Shown here: in pieces, positions 1 through 46,422 of the stretch | Numbering within the stretch: the stretch's first letter is position 1 | How the letters are laid out: each line of letters opens with the position of its first letter | NCBI GenBank assembly: GCA_950295325.1 | Contig: OX485803.1 | Location: 25,854,001-25,918,000 of the forward strand | Direction: 5' to 3' | From: Polytrichum commune | Lineage: Eukaryota; Streptophyta; Polytrichopsida; Polytrichales; Polytrichaceae | Length of the DNA: 64,000 bases | Made by a program: the position numbers and the translations under genes | Notes under the pieces: generated by a model | Databases searched by the model: none | Seen by the model: only the letters and a program-made list of their open reading frames with translations | What the model was told of the DNA's origin: nothing

Positions 1-3000
1 TCGCATTTGCTGTCAGGGCTATTATGGATGTCCTTTGCTGTCCCTCATTTTCGGCATCTCTGACAGCTTTGCAAGCTTCGTACCCATCCATCACAGGCAT
101 CTGTCACAACCAGAACCACAGAATATCAGACAAATGAATTTCTAGATGCAGAGAACTACAAATATCTTCCTCAATCTTTTTTGGGAAATGTCGCCTGCTC
201 AAGTTCATGTTGCTACAAGATCTACAAATACAACAGCTTCAAAAGGCAATACGAACCTTGGCTATCACCAGCACAAAAATTGTGTCATAACCTAGATAGA
301 TGTCAAGGAGAATCCCTACGACTAAAAACCACAGACACACTTACATGAATAAATTTTGCTTCATGCAATCAAGAAGATACCTGACAGTCCATGAGGATAC
401 AATTGAAAGGAGGCTGGCCATTATTCATGCGGTTGACAACAGCTGTTAAAACCTCCCGCCCATTAGCAGCTTCATGTGTACAAGCCCCAAGCTTCCGTAG
501 CATTGCAACAGCCAGTTTCCGCAATAATGGTGTATCCTCGGCCACCATAATCTCTAGTTTCTCAAGGGGCTTTGGCATGGCCCGACCGAGAGTCTTGTTT
601 TTCTTGGGTCTAGCCCTTTGAAAATTGTTCAAGGTTCTGGTTGTAGGAGGAGGGCTCGCATCTTGAACTAGGTTGCTGACTTCAGGGAGAATCGGTGTGA
701 GGATGACTTTAGCAGCCTGCTCAGAAGTTGTAATTGGGAGTAAACTCGATAGAGACAGTTCTGCTTTCGCCGGACCTGTTGATGAGACCTCAGAATCACA
801 TCTGTAAGGATCATCCCACTCTTGCTGTTTAGCATAAGCTAATGCATTTGACGAAAGAATTCTTGGTCTGTCAGACTCTGTTATAGGTAAGGGATCCCCC
901 CCCTCACGAGCTATTTGTTGGAAGAGCTCTTTTAAGCGAGCAGAGTGTAATGGCCGCCTTACTGTGATAGAGTTTCGAACAGATCTTAACGCTGCCTTCA
1001 CAGGTTCTGGAGTATTAGAAGCTGTGACCCAGATAACTAAAAGGTTGCGCTGAATGTTTGTCAATTGCCGCTCATTCAAGTCAAGTTTCTCAAGACCAAG
1101 AGCATCAAGACATAAAGCAGAAGTCCCCGTTAAGAATCCTGCTTGTCGAAGGTACTCCTCAAGATAATCATGTTCAACAATACTTGGTAACAAGCTTATA
1201 TCAATAATCAATAATTGCCGTTCTTGTCCACTTAAAGCCTTTGATCCAATATTCTTCCAACTTTTCCAAAATTCATAACGGCTAGACCACTTTGGAACAG
1301 ATGCTCTTGGGCTCTTTGCACCCCCTTCCAATGCTAAAGTTGATGCCTGAACAGACTCTGCAATATACCTCTGTGTCAACCCTGAGGGTCCTTTTCTCTG
1401 GTCAGCCAATATTCCATTTAAAGCTCTCATGTGAAGTAAAATTTCATCCCATGTGTCGCATTGATGAGCCACAAGACCCCATGATTTAACCCATCGAGCA
1501 ACTACGGAGCGACAGTCAGCTTCTGGGATGCCAAGAACCACCTCAGCTCCTTGTAAAGAAGATGGTAGAAGGAAGGGGCCTCTTTCAATCTTCAAAGAAC
1601 GTTGGAAGGCAATCGTGAACTGAAACAAAGATCCTGGGCCGATCTTTTCCACAATCCTGATGTTCCCACCCATTATCTGTACAAGTGACTTGACAATGCC
1701 CAGGCCTAATCCTGTGCCTCCATGCCTGCAGATAGTCCATGTTGACATGAGGACTCATTTGGTAGTAGTAAGAAATATTGCTGGTATTCATTGAGTGAAG
1801 ACCTTCATGTAGCTATAATCTGTCAACATCAATTACAATGCAGTCAAACAAAGCATTAAAGGAAGTGGCTTACGTTCGAGTTGTGCTTGCATCGCCCTGA
1901 ACAAAGTTTTCGAAAACACGCTCCCTCAAGGCTGCATACACAGTTCCATTCAGAAAGTACCAATCAGATGCCTCGTACAAGATACAACAGTAAAGTCAAA
2001 CAAGTAACTAAAGGACATTATTCACATCAATGTAGTCTATACATGACCATGAGAAAGTGGGGGAGGTGGGGTTGGGGGGGGTACTACCTGGGTCTATTCC
2101 AGGGCCAGTGTCATCAACTTCAAACAGTAAAATAACTTCCTCATTGACTGAAGGTTCTGCAAATATATCTAGAGAAAAAGAGCTGAAGCTGCGGCGGTGA
2201 ATTCGACCAGCAGGAGTTAGCCCATCTTCTACTGTTGCAAGCCGGCCCCGAACGGATATTCTTCCTTTAGATGTGAACTTGATGCTGTTCCCAATCAAGT
2301 TTGTAAACACTTGCATAACCCGGGCGGAGTCCCCAATAACATTCTTAGGTACATCATCTAAGAGACACCAGAATCACAAGGTACAAATCAGTTGTGATTC
2401 AAACCATCTATATTCAATTCCCTAACCACTACACAGAATCCAGAATCACCTGCAAATTACAACTACACAACATGAACAAGATAAGTAGGTACCAATTGCC
2501 CAGATAAAGAAATGACCTGGAGCTTCATTGTACACTGTAGGTGGAGTGTTCAAAGTACACTGACCTGCAAGCTGTAGAGATATAAAAAGCCCTTTGTTAT
2601 CACACTGCACTGAGAAGACGTCTATCAGCGCTGTGAGCTCTGCCTCAAGATCAAATTCTGCTTTCTCAAGGATAAGCTTCCCAGATTCGACCTGCCAAAA
2701 GATTCTCGTTATAGATGCAGCTGATTTGGAGACTGTTAGTTGACCAGAACATAAAATATCTCATTCAAGTGAATACAGACCACCAAAATCATGTACAGCT
2801 ACCAGTGAAAGACAGTGGCCCTAACATGGTGGGGCATTCCAGTATCAGGTTGTTCGCTAAGGGAACACAATAACAAGTAACATCCTTGACTTGGAATATG
2901 GATGTGAGGAACAAATAAGTTCAAGACTTTTTCACCAAGGTACTCTCAGCTTACCATCACTTCTAGATGTAGATATGTTGATGAAAGTTGGAACGAGATG

Positions 3001-6000
3001 AAACATTTGACCAGGAATAAGACAATTTTTTTAAATTGAGGAAATAAACACAGAATACTATAAACAACTATCTACTTCATTCACCATCCTTCCAATATGC
3101 AGCAAGCAGGACACACCTAAAGTAGTACGTTCGCAAAGGAAGGAATGATTTGACAAAATGACAAGCCAGGACAGACTTAATTACAAAAAGGTCAAAGCAT
3201 AGAGAACACCTTTGCAATGTCAAGAGCAGAGTTGAGGAGAGCAACAAGCGAAGTTGCGCAGCGATGGATTTGCCGGACACTACTTTCAGTATCCTGTGAC
3301 AGTTTCTCTGATAAAAGCATGTCCAGCAGCCCAATGATGCAAGCCATCGGAGTCCGAAGTTCATGGCTGTTTCCAAAATGTCCCAAAAAGATGGAAGGCT
3401 CTCATCAGAATTGCATCTTACAAATGAAGAAAATGTGACACACCTACATTTGAAATTAATATCACAAATCCCAGATTCAACTTACAATCCTCAAAAGGTG
3501 TTGATTTCAATAATATAAACTAAAGCAGAGGGTAGACATCACAAATGTGCTTCAAACTGTAGCACTTACCTCATGCTTGACAAGAAGTTGGTCTTAGCAT
3601 CTCGACTAGCTTCAGCCCTACGCTTTGCCTCAGATTGCCTTAGAATTTCTGCCCTCAGCTTCTCCTCAGCTTGAACTTGTTCAACCAACAAGTATATAAG
3701 ACTGCAACCTATGAAGACAACTCCAAGAGAGAGCAGTGGCAAGGAGATCCAAGTAACTCTTGTGTAGTAGTCCATGGGGCCCCAGAAACTATGTCGAGGA
3801 ATCATAACCACCACTGCAAGCTTCACTGTTTGAAACTCATAAGGCCAACTATCAATAGAATAACGTTTGCCTCTGATACTCACATCACCAAAGCTGGTTC
3901 GCACTTTCACCAAATTTGCCAATCCAACTTCCTTCATAAGAAAGGACTTTGCTTCACTAAGAACAGAGTGCAGAGGGGCCACTTCACATTCAGATTTGTT
4001 CCGCTCAGCACAGTTGGTTGCATCTGAAGAAAAGAGGAGCTTCCCGTTCTGATCCGACAAAAAGATTCTACCCCCTGCCACATGGTTCAATCATCGTGTG
4101 CATTTTAAAATAGAACCAACATGCTATGTATTATTTAGAAAAAAGTACAATTGACCAGGTCAGACACTGTCTGTCTAAGTATGCACTCTCACTTGTAAGC
4201 AATACGTTAATGACAAATTTTACTTCAGTTTTCACAGTTGCAAGTTGGATCTAGGGGCTGACCTGGACTACGACTTTCAAAACATGTAGCCTAGTACTGA
4301 GAAGATAATTATCACCAATAGATTGTTCGATACCAATGAATCCCACTATATTTACCATTAACTTAAAATGCACTGGTGAATCTTGACTAGACCACTTCCG
4401 TGATCTCCATCCTTTCTGCCATACACATTGCAGGGTGCCAGAAAAGTAATCATAATCTGGGTGCCACAGCATTGCATGGCACTTTCAGACCTTCAAGTGT
4501 CAAGGATTTGCCAAAATACATGTTGGTGACCAATCTGGTCACCCATGACACTAAAGTATCAAAGAGGTGAGAAGAGATTTCCAAGCATTCTGAGAGGACA
4601 ACATGTACTGACCTTTCAAATCAAGAGAAGATATGAAGTTGTTTATTGCGACTGCACTGTGCCCAGAGTGGACAACAGCAATTTCCTTTGTACTGTGTGC
4701 TCGCACAGGTATTGCACACTGTATGAACGCTTGTTTAGCTGAAAAGAACAATGCAAGTAGTTCAATAAACAAGTTGGAACTCGCTTTCAAAATCTCTCGA
4801 TGAGGTAACATGCAGACATAGACCATAGTGCATCAGATTTCTGGCAGTCTCGGCAAGGTCCAGCAGGATATGGATGCCATTTAGTTGGGAATATTTGGCC
4901 TAAGAAAATTTATTCGAAGTTCAAGAGCTTGCAATCTTGTGACATTGCAATCAAAACGACCAGTGAGAACTTACTAACATAACTCCTTTCGATGAACCAG
5001 GAAAAACTGTTAACAGGCACTGTCAGCGCATCAATAAACCACTGCCTTGTGTGAAGAGGTGATCTCAAGTCCTCCACAATAGGAGAGGTTATAGGATCCC
5101 CTGTAATCTCATCCACAAACTCCTTGTAATACTGGGGGCTATCATCTGTAGAATTCGCATAAACCACAAAACTTCCCTGGTAGCCTTCAACTTCATTCTG
5201 GTTTCCACGAGCGTGTACCACAGTAAGTCCATTTAAGGCCGTAATACCCAATGTGGTGATAGTTGGCATGGCTTTAAATATCGACCATGATGCTGCCCGC
5301 ATCTGCCAAAAAAATTTGCATCAATAGGTGCTACTCTCAATAGGCATTTGCAGTGTGAGAACTGCAGAGATCATTATCATTCCAAAAGCAACTAATTCCT
5401 ACTCTACCAATCTGAATGAAAATCGAATGAAAGGGTTCTGTCAAGATTCAAGATAGGCATAGCAACTGGCTATCAGATTTCTAATGGCTGCTCCAGCTAA
5501 ACACTGAATGCAACACGACTAGCCAAACCAAGTGTTCTCAATCTTTGGTGAAATGATTTCAAGACAGAACTTGTCCAGCCCTAAGTAAGTGAGCTTCTCT
5601 CACAAAGTATGGAATGCAGCCACACTATCCCAAAGGCAGACATAGCCAAATATTGTCACTGTCCTTGTGCAAACACATCTTGTCTAAGCTCATCAAAAAA
5701 CTAGATCAGAATCACGTTACTCCATTGCCTTTAAAAAAATTGAAAGCAGAAGCATAAATGGCCCCAAGCAAGAGTAAATGATAGACAAGTTGCGAACCTT
5801 TTCTAGAGATTCAACACCAAAATCAACGCCAAAGAATTTTTTGTCCATCAAGTTTGCCACTGCCATAGAGCTATAAGTATTCATTTTGAAAATCCCATCC
5901 AGAAGCTCAGAAGTATTGACCAAGATTTCCAGTCGCAATGATTCCGATAAACTAGCCACTGCTGTTTTCGGGTAACTATGCGTGAAGTACCATGTGCTGA

Positions 6001-6169
6001 TTGTCAGCGCTCCAACTAGCACTGCAACTGTGACCTGCAGAATTCCAACCCCAGTCACCCTCAGAATGCTGAATAGCCTATAAACCCCTTTAACATCTGT
6101 CACAAAACAGCCTCCTCCACAATTGCACTTGTCAGCATACCAACTGCAATACCCATAATCAACTTCCAA
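1..6169 (-). CDS. CKI1: CKI1-type hybrid histidine kinase, 3' end outside window
   Basis: Membrane sensor kinase that starts a His-Asp phosphorelay of the cytokinin type. Read on the minus strand the exons are 6169-5798, 5302-4975, 4899-4810, 4738-4613, 4074-3570, 3366-3210, 2691-2565, 2357-2088, 1931-1874, 1725-381 and 100-1 (open). All phases agree, giving about 1,159 visible residues. Order: membrane segment near 39-62, an extracellular sensor region, a second membrane segment near 412-436 followed by a charged coiled stretch, the H box [10 protein letters not shown] with His about 475, N box NLIGNSIKF near 588-596, G1 DTGPGID, F motif FENFVQGD, G2 GGTGLGLG, a long linker, then a receiver with the acidic pair in VAEDTP and the phospho-acceptor Asp in ILMDCQMPVMDG (about 1124). 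The sensor region has no CHASE signature and resembles CKI1 rather than AHK2/3/4. The receiver Lys and stop lie beyond position 1. The start at 6169 is the first ATG of the exon and is uncertain. The donor at 4809 is weak. Confidence 0.9.
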
Positions 6170-25075: not shown

Positions 25076-25668
25076 AATAGCTCAAATCGGATACGAAGAA
25101 CATATACCGTGTGTTGGACCAATGCACAAATTATGTGTGGTCTTCTACGGACTACTTTTGGAGGTACAAGTACCTATTCGGATTTTGGGGGGGGGGGGGC
25201 ATATGGGTCCTTAGTCCTCTTGGAGATTCTCTTTTTGTGTAAAGGATCGACTTGACCCCACCCCACATGTAATGGACAACTTTCACACAACCAACATCAC
25301 CGTACCCCACGCGTTTAGAATGTGGGGGCCCACATGAAAACGGATGGGTGGTCTATCATACTCTTGAAGCTTGTCTATTGTACACTCCTTTTAAAAGTGC
25401 GTTTTCACCCTAAAAGTTGTGAATGCATGGGTAAGTGGAGAATTGTTTCTTGGAAGCAAAATGGATTTTATGTGGTTCAAGACATAAAAGTAAATAGAAA
25501 AATCTAGATTGGATACACACTTTTAGGTGCCCCTACTAGGTGACCATCAATGTCACATATAATCACACTATATTCTTGTTTCTCCGTCCTTTGTAAAACA
25601 ATGCACTAGAGATACTTCCAAGCTCTGAAATCTTTATTTGGATAGTTGATGAGATTACACGTAGAAAT
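25076..25668. other. No gene seen
   Basis: Intergenic, with a G run at 25187-25198. Ends at the left target duplication of the LINE. Confidence 0.5.
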
Positions 25669-25692
25669 GGTGTACATAAGAACTTAGAAATA

Positions 25693-26367
25693 ATGGCACG
25701 AAAATTTCTCAACATTAGCAAATGGATAATGAATCCAGACATCAATAACGTAGTATTCAATGACGTCTGGTCAAGCCTTGCAATAATAAACTCACAAAAA
25801 ATAAGCCTTCTAAAAAAAATTCGTACTGGCCAATACATGGGCAATGTTGGGAAGCAACTATTTTTGGGTATACAAAGATTCCCATCAATCGCATACCCAA
25901 TCTGCAATTCCCTTGACGCAGATACATGGCTCCATGTACTCCTAAAATGCAACCAACACCACACACATGCCCTTAGAACCAAAAGACATAACATAGGAGT
26001 TTGGGAACTAAGAAATCTAATCCTATCATCACATAAATCAAGATGTTACATCCTCGTGAATGCAGGATCATTCAAGAACAACCCACAAGAAAATACAATC
26101 CCTACATGGCTTTTACCTTGCACGTGCGAACAACAAAGATGTCATTGTAACGCCAAATTAAAACCCGACGTACTATGTATTAAAGGACTTCCATACCTAA
26201 GTACTCTGCCATCAACCCTAGTAGACAATCTCACAATACACTTTATAAAATTTGCATACACTAATGACAATTTTTCACAAGAAACAATAAACAACAAAAC
26301 CCAAAAATTCCAGCCAATAATCAATTGCCTCATCCAACAAGGGTGGAAAGTAGACCCAGATAGATAG
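25693..26367 (+). pseudogene. LINE reverse transcriptase C-terminal region, disrupted
   Basis: 224 open codons. They contain a CPIC-like pair (here YPICNS), then WLHVLLKCNQHHTHAL, forming the C-x2-C...H...C zinc knuckle seen after the polymerase domain of plant LINE ORF2, and a second Cys-rich block CTCEQQRCHCNAK. The frame reaches GWKVDP and hits stops where the SINE tail begins. The protein resumes after the SINE at about 26728 as LIVITTSARGTPHT and runs to a stop near 26921. Endonuclease and catalytic polymerase domains are absent. Confidence 0.8.
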
Positions 26368-26720
26368 ATAGAAACTCCGGTCCCTTTTTAGCAAGGGGCT
26401 GGCGTGAATAAAGTGTCCGTTCGTAATGTCAATGACCCGATGCCCACCGGACAAGGGGACATTGGGGCAATACTACTCTCCCCTTTCAAGGATGGACACT
26501 ATAGTGACACACTATACTAGTTCCTAGCTAGCCAATAGTGCCTTGAAGATACCGGATATGGTATCCCCCCAAAGGGCTTTGAGGTACCCATACAACAAGG
26601 TCCAAGGACCCCCCACCATAGTTGGGTGGACTAAGGTGGTGAGCACCACGCCAGCATGAGGAATAGAACCCACAACCTCCTCATATGGGGCCATGAGCCC
26701 TAACCACCAAGCCAAGGCCC
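26361..26720 (-). mobile_element. tRNA-derived SINE inserted in the LINE
   Basis: On the minus strand it starts with an A-box-like TGGCTTGGTGG, followed about 35 bp later by a B-box-like GGGTTCTATTCC, so it has a pol III tRNA-type head. A body of about 150 bp ends in TTTCTATCTATCTATC. That last part matches the 3' end of the host LINE (27040-27190) in inverted orientation, sharing ACTAGT, GGAGAGTAGTATTG, GTGGGCAT, GGGTCATT and ACTTTATTCACGCCA. No clear target duplication is visible. Confidence 0.8.
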
Positions 26721-27202
26721 TTGGTGCTACTTATAGTCATCACAACTAGCGCCAGAGGAACTCCACATACCCCCCTCAATGAAACAACTAAAAAAAATCT
26801 ATCACCTGAAACCTCCATCAAAAACACATTCAAAACAATAAACATTTATGCCATTCAATATGATGGCTCAATCTTACTACACAAAAGACGAATAGAGAAA
26901 AACCAATCAATACCAATATAATAATTATATTTTAAAAACAAAACAAAACACCACCAACAAAGAAAAATCAGAATATTGCTATTAGGGGACCAACTAACAC
27001 ATGATTATCCTAACCCTCATCCCATGGTTACTTTTATTGGTTACTAGTCACTAAAGTGTCTATTCTCGACAGAGGAGAGTAGTATTGTCCCAATGGCCCT
27101 TTGCCCAGTGGGCATGGGGTCATTAACAATTCGAGCATACACTTTATTCACGCCAACCTTTACCAAGAGGTCCGAAACTTTTATCTATCTGGTGTACATA
27201 AG

Positions 27203-44100: not shown

Positions 44101-46422
44101 CAGCTACTGTGGCGTGAGTTTTTCTACACAGTGGGTTATGGCACGCCGAATTATGATAGAATGTATGGAAATCCCATTTGCAAACAGGTATGTTACTCAC
44201 CGTTCTGCGTCCATGTAGATTTTTTTGGGAGAAATTGAGTGGAAATCTATGCATATGTCCTGAAAACTAGCTCTACCAGATCATATGTCCTGCTAAGTGT
44301 GCTTTTTGATTCAGTGCGCAGAAAACACTATGAGAACCTTTTCCACTAAATCATCTGTGATCATTCCTTCTTTTTTTAAAAACTACCAATGTTAGGGATC
44401 CTGTCCGCTTATATGGATGTCTTCCTAATTGTGTTGATTGTTGTTATCATGATCAGATACCATGGAAAGATGATGATCAGCTGCTAGCAGCGTGGCGAGA
44501 GGGGCGCACAGGGCATCCCTGGATTGATGCTGCCATGATTCAGGTTGCCATTTACTTCCTTTTTCAATATAAAATTCTATCTTCTCTAAACTGCCATTGA
44601 TAGTTCTTACAGGCTTGTTGACCAATCTGCTTGAATTTTGTGATTGTCGGATGCAGCTACGAAAGTGGGGTTGGATGCATCACCTGGCACGACATGCTGT
44701 TGCGTGCTACCTCACTCGTGGGGATCTGGTAAGTCGAATTTTTGAGTTTGATGAGATTCTCACAGCAATGGTCTGGCATAAACATATCAAAATTTCAACC
44801 ACATAGGCTACCTTCTTATGTGTATCCATAAATCTTAGAACCTTCTTATGGCATTGTGATGGGATGGATTCCACTGATGGAAAAACCATGTTCTTGTCTG
44901 AATCTACATCAAGTTTTGCATCCACTTGCACGATGCAGTTTGTGTACTGGGAAAAAGGTCGAGACGTCTTCGACAGACTTTTGATCGACTCCGACTGGGC
45001 TATTAATAATGGCAATTGGTTATGGCTGTCAGCGTCTGCATTTTTTCACCAAGTGAGGAAGCCTGGACCAAACTGAAAACATCATTTTCGTTTGAACTTT
45101 CATTTAGTTTGTTGATCAGGGGTTTGACATAGCAAAGGTTGCATATGCTAGGAATGAGGGTAGTGTCAGTACTAATATCTCGTGGGACTCTGCAGTATCA
45201 TCGAATATACTCCCCCATCACTTTTGGCAAGAAATACGACCCTGATGGCCTCTACGTAAAGCGTTTCCTACCAGTGTTGAAAGGTGACGCCCCTGTTTTA
45301 AAGTCACTTGTGATTTACAGTAACTTCCATTATGCGGTGGGTTATTGTGTGGTTTAAGAAGCTCTCTAATACTTTTATCTGTGGTATGGCTAGCCTAACT
45401 GGTGTGGGTTGCACTACATGCAACAGACATGCCCAAGCAATACATTTATGAACCGTGGACAGCCCCACTCGAAGTGCAAAAGAAAGCAAACTGCATTATT
45501 GGAGTTGATTATCCTCGCCCTTGTAAGCTCTTCTAACCCTGCATGTTGAATTCAAGTAAGACCTAGTTCCCTTCGGTAAGATGTTGATGTTGAGATTGGG
45601 TGGCTAAACCCAAGACCTTGACCTGGATCCCATGGGAACTTTTAGGTTAAGTCGCCTAAGGCCGAAATATAGTGCTTGGATGGGTAGCCGGGAGTATCCG
45701 GGTGAACTGGGTATATTCAATCAACCATTTTGGAACCCAAAGGGCTTGACCTCGAGGAGGATTACGTGCAGGCCAACTTGTGCTCGCCCATTCAAGGTGT
45801 TCACCTTTGAAAAGAGGCAACAATCTTTATGGTCTCTCTAAATGTCGTGATCTCTGTTTTGGAATCATATATGGAACTAGACTAACTTAAAGATGAAGCA
45901 ACACGGTAATTCACGCCGCTGGTAACATTGGAGTCGTCTCTCTCTCTCTCTCTCTCTATATATATGTGTGTGTGTGTGTGTTGAGATTACAGAGGTGAAT
46001 TTGGAAGATGTTTACTTGATGGTGAGGCGAAAAAAATTAAATGTATTTGAGGGCCTAGCAAATATATATATATATATATATAGATTTTTTGTCGCGCCCT
46101 ATTAACCTCAAGATGTAAATATATTATATGTGATGGTCTTATCTTTGCAGTGGTGGACCATGCAATTGCCAACAAGCAATGCCGAGAAAGGATGGGTCAA
46201 GCTTATGCATTGAACAAGGAAGCTGGGGGGCAGCCCAAGAAGGAGCAAGTGGATGCGTTGCATGATCGGTTGGAAAAAGAATTTCCAGTGGTGGACAATC
46301 AGATTTCAAGTGCTCCACCTGAACCAACTCCCAAGAAAACCGTTAAGGTTGTCTTGAAAGCAAAGGTGAAGGCAGAGCCTTCGAGTAAGCGGCAACGTAA
46401 ATTGACAGATTACAAGAAGTAA
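41128..46422 (+). CDS. UVR3: (6-4) DNA photolyase
   Basis: Flavoprotein that uses blue/UV-A light to split pyrimidine (6-4) pyrimidone photoproducts. Exons: 41128-41230, 41622-41839, 41971-42042, 42727-42807, 42975-43148, 43292-43360, 43555-43641, 43790-43888, 44104-44187, 44457-44543, 44657-44728, 44939-45052, 45196-45283, 45427-45522, 46151-46422. Total 1,716 bp, 571 residues; phases close throughout. Residues [16 protein letters not shown] open the photolyase domain. [35 protein letters not shown] and YDPDG form the FAD pocket. His 367 and His 371 match the pair needed for (6-4) repair. The C-terminus is Lys-rich with KRQRK, a likely nuclear signal. Close to Arabidopsis UVR3 (556 residues, from memory). 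An upstream in-frame ATG at 41035 would add 31 residues, perhaps an organelle-targeting form. Intron 7 starts with GC. Confidence 0.95.
41303..41640 (+). repeat. Tandem repeat in UVR3 intron 1 running into exon 2
   Basis: Four diverged units of 90-105 bp start near 41303, 41393, 41498 and 41593. Each has TTTGGCTT-like sequence, GTGAAGGTGC(G/C)AG, CCATGTG and, except in the last, GAAATGCC(A/G)TATG and GTTGGACT. The last unit includes the acceptor and the first bases of exon 2 (41622). Confidence 0.8.
44008..44054 (+). repeat. Hairpin in UVR3 intron 8
   Basis: GCTGGGCCTTCATGAA (44008-44023) pairs with TTCGTGAAGGCCCAGC (44039-44054), 15 of 16 bases, with a 15-base loop. A partial outer pair (GGCCCATGCTGAAAAAC / CAGCATGGGTTTTCC) extends it. 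Confidence 0.8.
45600..45945 (+). repeat. 5S rRNA-derived sequence (SINE3-like) in UVR3 intron 14
   Basis: GGATCCCATGGGAACT, then AGGTTAAGTCGCCTAAGG and GCTTGGATGGGTAGCCGGGA follow the order and spacing of a 5S rRNA gene's second half, including A-box-like and C-box-like promoter parts. The first half is missing or too diverged. The segment runs on to AATTCACGCCGCTGGTAACA and GGAGTCGTC before a TC tract. A close copy of that 30-bp end is in an epsilon-tubulin intron at 53121-53152. This fits a 5S-derived SINE better than a 5S gene. Confidence 0.65.
45937..45981. repeat. Compound microsatellite TC-TA-GT
   Basis: About 10 TC, 4-5 TA and 8 GT units in UVR3 intron 14. A second AT tract is at 46062-46082. 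Confidence 0.9.

Follow-up and report, generated by a model that had tools for sequence, protein, structure and literature searches.

To our knowledge, how a LINE enzyme chooses its own RNA, and how a SINE cheats that choice, have been worked out for few clades. LINE/SINE pairing is already a known phenomenon, and the example described below appears to be new for a land plant. In the green alga Chlamydomonas, SINEX-5/6_CR pair with RandI-5, and SINEX-1, -2 and -4 with RandI-2 (Ohshima 2013, PMC3747384). Among land plants, the portions of the same survey available to us list pairs from maize/sorghum L1 and tobacco RTE only (PMC3747384). Dualen elements have been reported in green algae, in the accessible part of one account (PMC8226300). 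Among the matches listed in our literature search, which covers journals in part and is no proof of novelty, no report of Dualen/RandI from a moss was present.

A LINE interrupted by a tRNA-like SINE

The window analysed here is a 64,000-nucleotide stretch of DNA from the moss Polytrichum commune, and the genome searched comprises 407.8 Mb in 64 contigs (C1-C7 being 42-78 Mb each). A smaller contig, C8 (146,561 bp), carries full-length PsaA and PsaB, two genes in all. Among the best 60 of 84 matches, its PsaA chain scores highest with 8htu (1719.5 bits), 6l35 (1703.7) and 9lut (1693.6), ahead of a group at 1649 bits or lower. 6L35 appears in work on photosystem I of the moss Physcomitrella (PMC7884438), and 8htu is a structure from that moss too, so these matches point to a moss as the likely source. 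A 5'-truncated LINE in the window (25681-27189, a piece of ~1.5 kb) is interrupted by an inserted SINE. The initial annotation had assigned this LINE a 12-bp target duplication; the duplication is present, with a measured length of 13 nt, as the direct repeat TGGTGTACATAAG at 25668-25680 and 27190-27202. The locus is composed of the following features:

25668-25680, no strand: left target-site duplication of the LINE (TGGTGTACATAAG), repeat D12
25681-26357, plus strand: first piece of the LINE, C-terminal coding part, 5'-truncated, open frame P0001
26358-26728, minus strand: tRNA-like SINE within the LINE, 371 nt with its tail; A box at SINE position 15, B box at 59
26367-26520, minus strand: SINE 3' segment common to the LINE; RNA model match of 147.1 bits
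26358-26372, minus strand: TATC-type tail of the SINE
26729-27034, plus strand: second piece of the LINE, coding end and 3' untranslated region
27035-27185, plus strand: structured 3' tail of the LINE; RNA model match of 130.1 bits, this row being within the model training set
27182-27189, plus strand: TATC-type end of the LINE
27190-27202, no strand: right target-site duplication of the LINE, repeat D12

The frame interrupted by the SINE is LINE coding sequence, as had been proposed. Once the SINE is removed, the window LINE aligns gap-free with five other copies and no base is lost. No target duplication around the window SINE was seen by eye in that alignment. The SINE differs from fetched copies of its family at 6-7 per ~212 positions and carries A and B boxes separated by 44 nt, which we take to be internal Pol III promoter boxes; a scan of the window with ARAGORN detects no tRNA, and thus no parent tRNA of the SINE. 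Elsewhere in the window, open frames at 369-6169 on the minus strand resemble, by eye, a plant receptor histidine kinase.

The LINE 3' end had also been read as resembling the 3' part of the SINE in inverted orientation, and the alignments bear this out. Positions 26397-26508 and 27047-27158 match in inverted orientation over 112 ungapped nt at 83%, and a gapped alignment of the LINE end with the reverse-complemented SINE end reaches into both tails with a score of 137, where the best of 1,000 shuffles of the letters scores 30, confirming homology. The common segment is ~145 nt long, and TATC repeats close both elements, again in keeping with the annotation. At the level of sequence, the two tails are shown to share common ancestry. 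The nesting of both partners in one locus, presented originally as direct evidence, is incidental and carries no evidential weight.

Distribution and predicted fold of the common 3' segment

Searching the genome with P0001 returned 4,144 first-look LINE candidates, 150 of which were scored and 40 of these, spanning the range of identities, fetched. The segment was recognised by sequence at the 3' end of 36; in the remaining four it is detected with a covariance model trained on 32 LINE-only tails, so that LINE copies lacking it, a possibility raised at the outset, are absent from the fetched set. L036, kept out of model training as these four were, has the segment at 124 bits. The four copies in question (L018-L021) were considered as LINEs without the segment and rejected as such, since both reading of the loci and the covariance model (73-87 bits) show it. 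The SINE search gave 1,025 candidates, with 20 copies fetched from the 40 best non-self places; the LINE-trained model finds the segment closing 19 of them (E 1.4e-42 to 5.6e-36, 137-161 bits). The exception, L042, has a matching SINE head, with DNA that departs just before the common tail, maybe through later insertion or rearrangement. Within the window, the model has two strong matches, the LINE and SINE tails, and the next (20.3 bits) lies antisense to the LINE tail. A weak match at 45775-45944 on the plus strand (16.1 bits, E 0.029) adjoins CT and GT repeats and is possibly a decayed tail or due to chance.

The same arrangement emerges when the segment itself is taken as the starting point. 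From 39 non-self segment places, 37 copies were fetched (the remaining two lie within LINE loci), and upstream of these is LINE sequence in 17, a SINE head in 11 and neither in 9, with the short LINE matches of L083 and L087 (25-27 nt) excluded from the LINE class. Over the initial 43.8 Mb of C1, the exact 29-nt tail motif follows 48 of the 86 listed exact SINE heads, on the same strand and within 1.5 kb downstream, while none of the 86 has this motif on the opposite strand or upstream. The head-tail coordinate offset is 170-185 in 47 of these 48 pairs and 1,136 in one, a regularity that speaks against the independent repeat that had been considered at the outset; heads without an exact tail motif may have mutated tails. 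Tail motifs without an adjacent SINE head make up 52 of 100 in the same 43.8 Mb. In this genome the segment belongs to the LINE itself as its 3' end, and the search for both families that had been proposed finds it ending each of them.

Modelling indicates that the tail is a multi-helix RNA, with a fold conserved in LINE and SINE. The predicted layout comprises a closing stem enclosing a small and a long hairpin, followed by a terminal hairpin and the TATC repeats. When the fold of the LINE copy L008 is applied to 54 tails, 91.4% of cells are paired, against a maximum of 49.3% when it is slid by 1-3 columns. Both partners have changed in 21 of the 42 pairs, where shuffles average 10.5. The pair at columns 29-110, for example, is intact in all 54 rows, as UA in 34 of them and as CG in the other 20; some pairs are weak, such as columns 28-111, unpaired in 21 of 54. 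On four of five fold measures none of 500 shuffles reaches the observed value, and 4 reach it on the fifth, in a comparison where the shuffles keep the relatedness among tails and the tested structure is taken from one of the 54 rows (L008). RNAalifold predicts a smaller structure from the same 54-tail alignment, with 22 pairs, 7 showing double changes. Folded singly, L018 and L019 adopt the same layout despite quite different stems.

The LINE and SINE families

Two LINE copies carry open frames of 2,924 and 2,919 codons stop-to-stop (L098:301-9072 and L099:282-9038), giving a protein length of ~2,920 codons with APE, RT, RNase H and an RLE-like motif. Pfam detects RT, RNase H (3.6e-12 and 1.5e-14) and PCIF1_WW in both frames. 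APE exceeds the Pfam cut-off in one frame (P0003, 25.5 bits; cut-off 24.5) and is absent from the Pfam matches of P0002 at E<=1; ExoIII in PDB matches the LINE APE weakly (E 0.015). In PDB the RT matches R2 best (4e-29), though other RT entries, 8gh6 (8.1e-19) and 8ibw (1.4e-17), score close to 8c8j (1.5e-17), which we take to be an L1 structure. A CCHC plus K/RPD...E...K pattern, presumably an RLE motif, is conserved across 41 C-termini. Pfam gives no RLE match in the C-terminus, a profile built from 24 C-termini fails to retrieve R2 from PDB at E<=10, and the part of R2 collinear with it has a score of -1.8 bits. A single-sequence fold predicted for P0001 is of low confidence (pLDDT 35.9). 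By its domains, the LINE appears closest to Dualen/RandI and is filed here as Dualen/RandI-like, short of proven membership.

Between RT and RNase H, both long frames contain a PCIF1-like domain (Pfam; L098 1.3e-10, L099 2.9e-12). It is probably not an active methyltransferase, because the position of NPPF, which we take to be the PCIF1 motif, is occupied by HPHN in the L098 alignment. Upstream of APE, P0003 has the motif GDIETNPGP, presumably 2A-like, and P0002 the variant GDIKPNPGP.

Both families have young members. In one LINE group, out of 1,883 candidates, the 40 places that were scored all reach 98-100% identity, and this group is young and recently amplified. The SINE is likewise young and recently amplified: a 23-nt head motif has 680 exact occurrences in the genome (reversed control, 0), and head divergence has a median of 0.4% and a maximum of 2.2% among the 20 fetched best matches, in which older copies are under-represented. 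Another tRNA-like SINE (GGTTCGATTC box), with an A-rich end, was noted by eye in the 3' untranslated region of L018 and L021, a LINE lineage whose own tail is TTCTC-type.

LINE and SINE have the same tail type and the same type of duplication. Target duplications satisfying a strict rule flank 18 of the 28 SINEs examined (two of the 28 being without a matched head start), and the first base is T in all 18. Repeats of 11-14 nt flank 8 of 26 non-SINE segment copies, and T stands first in seven of the eight LINE repeats of at least 11 nt, the exception being L064 (A).

Origin of the SINE tail and relation to known pairs

The tail of the SINE is very probably a captured 3' end from a Dualen/RandI-like LINE whose enzyme would copy it, and by sequence and structure the two would form a LINE/SINE pair of the stringent type. 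We infer that the SINE would be transcribed by Pol III from its A and B boxes and mobilised in trans by the LINE protein, which would pick out the folded 3' RNA and reverse-transcribe it at a nicked target with T at the junction, leaving duplications mostly of 10-14 nt. For the short element, its copied LINE RNA tail is thus the most likely route to getting copied.

Alternatively, the SINE tail could be a LINE-derived relic, with the SINE now copied by another LINE such as L1. The majority tail of the young LINE group does differ by ~9% from the SINE majority, yet the LINE-trained structure model gives SINE tails 137-161 bits, and their TATC repeats and T-start duplications agree with those of the LINE. 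The A-rich-ended SINE in L018/L021 also differs by eye from the tail-sharing SINE, and an L1-driven SINE would therefore be expected to look otherwise. A relic tail is accordingly improbable in our assessment.

Capture from the LINE remains the preferred reading, and it can be followed further among the LINE lineages. The single LINE tails nearest to the SINE majority are those of L103 (96.4%) and L002 (94.2%), which are 98% identical to each other over 411 nt, against 82% for the next listed relative; only two close copies of this subfamily were found, one adjoining a frame with two stops. Majority tails of the LINE subfamilies match the SINE majority at 89.6-91.9%, a range in which no single donor stands out, and that of the young group at 91.1%. 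With the nearest tails in a two-copy subfamily and the young group at 91.1%, we therefore settle on no present partner LINE. The window LINE had been taken as the SINE's likely partner; its tail has a mean identity to SINEs of 80.2%, against 96.4% to the SINE majority for L103, and it is therefore a relative of the donor and not the source.

Transfer in the other direction, with the LINE acquiring its 3' end from the SINE, is very unlikely. In its favour, the tail tree is midpoint-rooted with no outgroup; yet all 31 SINE tails fall, together with L082, into one clade (support 99) and are close copies of one another, whereas LINE tails are far more diverse, some lineages being found only via the structure model. 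Backbone support of this tree is weak (53-57). Scarcely credible is an independent repeat inserted separately into LINE and SINE, as the nine of 37 segment copies without recognisable LINE or SINE head upstream might suggest, given that the segment is terminal in all 40 fetched LINEs and 19 of 20 fetched SINEs, that no listed SINE head has a misplaced or inverted tail, that in three of the nine (L064, L069 and L070) a repeat of 12-13 nt lies 36-82 nt before the segment, as expected of 5'-truncated LINEs, and that another of the nine, L082, groups with the SINE tails in the tree.

Capture of a LINE tail by the SINE opens a wider, tentative possibility: mosses may keep a living dual-endonuclease Dualen-like branch that recognises a large folded RNA, the sequence of which turns over while its shape stays, so that several LINE lineages could drive one SINE family, and in which the PCIF1-like module, probably non-catalytic, may handle RNA. 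The 98-100% identical LINE group, the 680 SINE head copies and the covarying RNA together offer clear base pairs to break and restore.

As far as the available parts of the sources describe them, Dualen/RandI LINEs resemble the moss LINE in having APE, an RLE-like C-terminus and RNase H; their hosts are green algae as opposed to a moss, and the moss RLE is a candidate by motif (PMC4640811, PMC3636483, PMC8226300). The moss LINE carries a PCIF1-like domain beside these Dualen/RandI-type domains. From the portion of the survey at hand, the land-plant pairs of maize (ZmSINE2/3 with LINE1-1_ZM) and tobacco (TS with RTE) have a common 3' end, as in the moss, and that of maize/sorghum a 3' hairpin with compensatory changes, as in the moss tail; their partners are L1 and RTE in contrast to a Dualen/RandI-like LINE, and the last 45 nt are conserved, compared with about 140 nt and several helices in the moss (PMC3747384). 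Closer, in the same portion, are SINEX-5/6_CR and RandI-5, in which the SINE tail also derives from a RandI/Dualen LINE and the SINE promoter is listed as tRNA; Chlamydomonas SINEX and the moss SINE both have non-poly(A) 3' repeats, (ATT)n or (CTTT)n in the alga and TATC in the moss, and the pairs are likened here by description (PMC3747384). The host of those SINEX elements is a green alga; the moss locus would add a Dualen-like LINE/SINE pair to the land plants, for which a 2022 review, in the part available, has LINEs of L1 and RTE only (PMC9033089).
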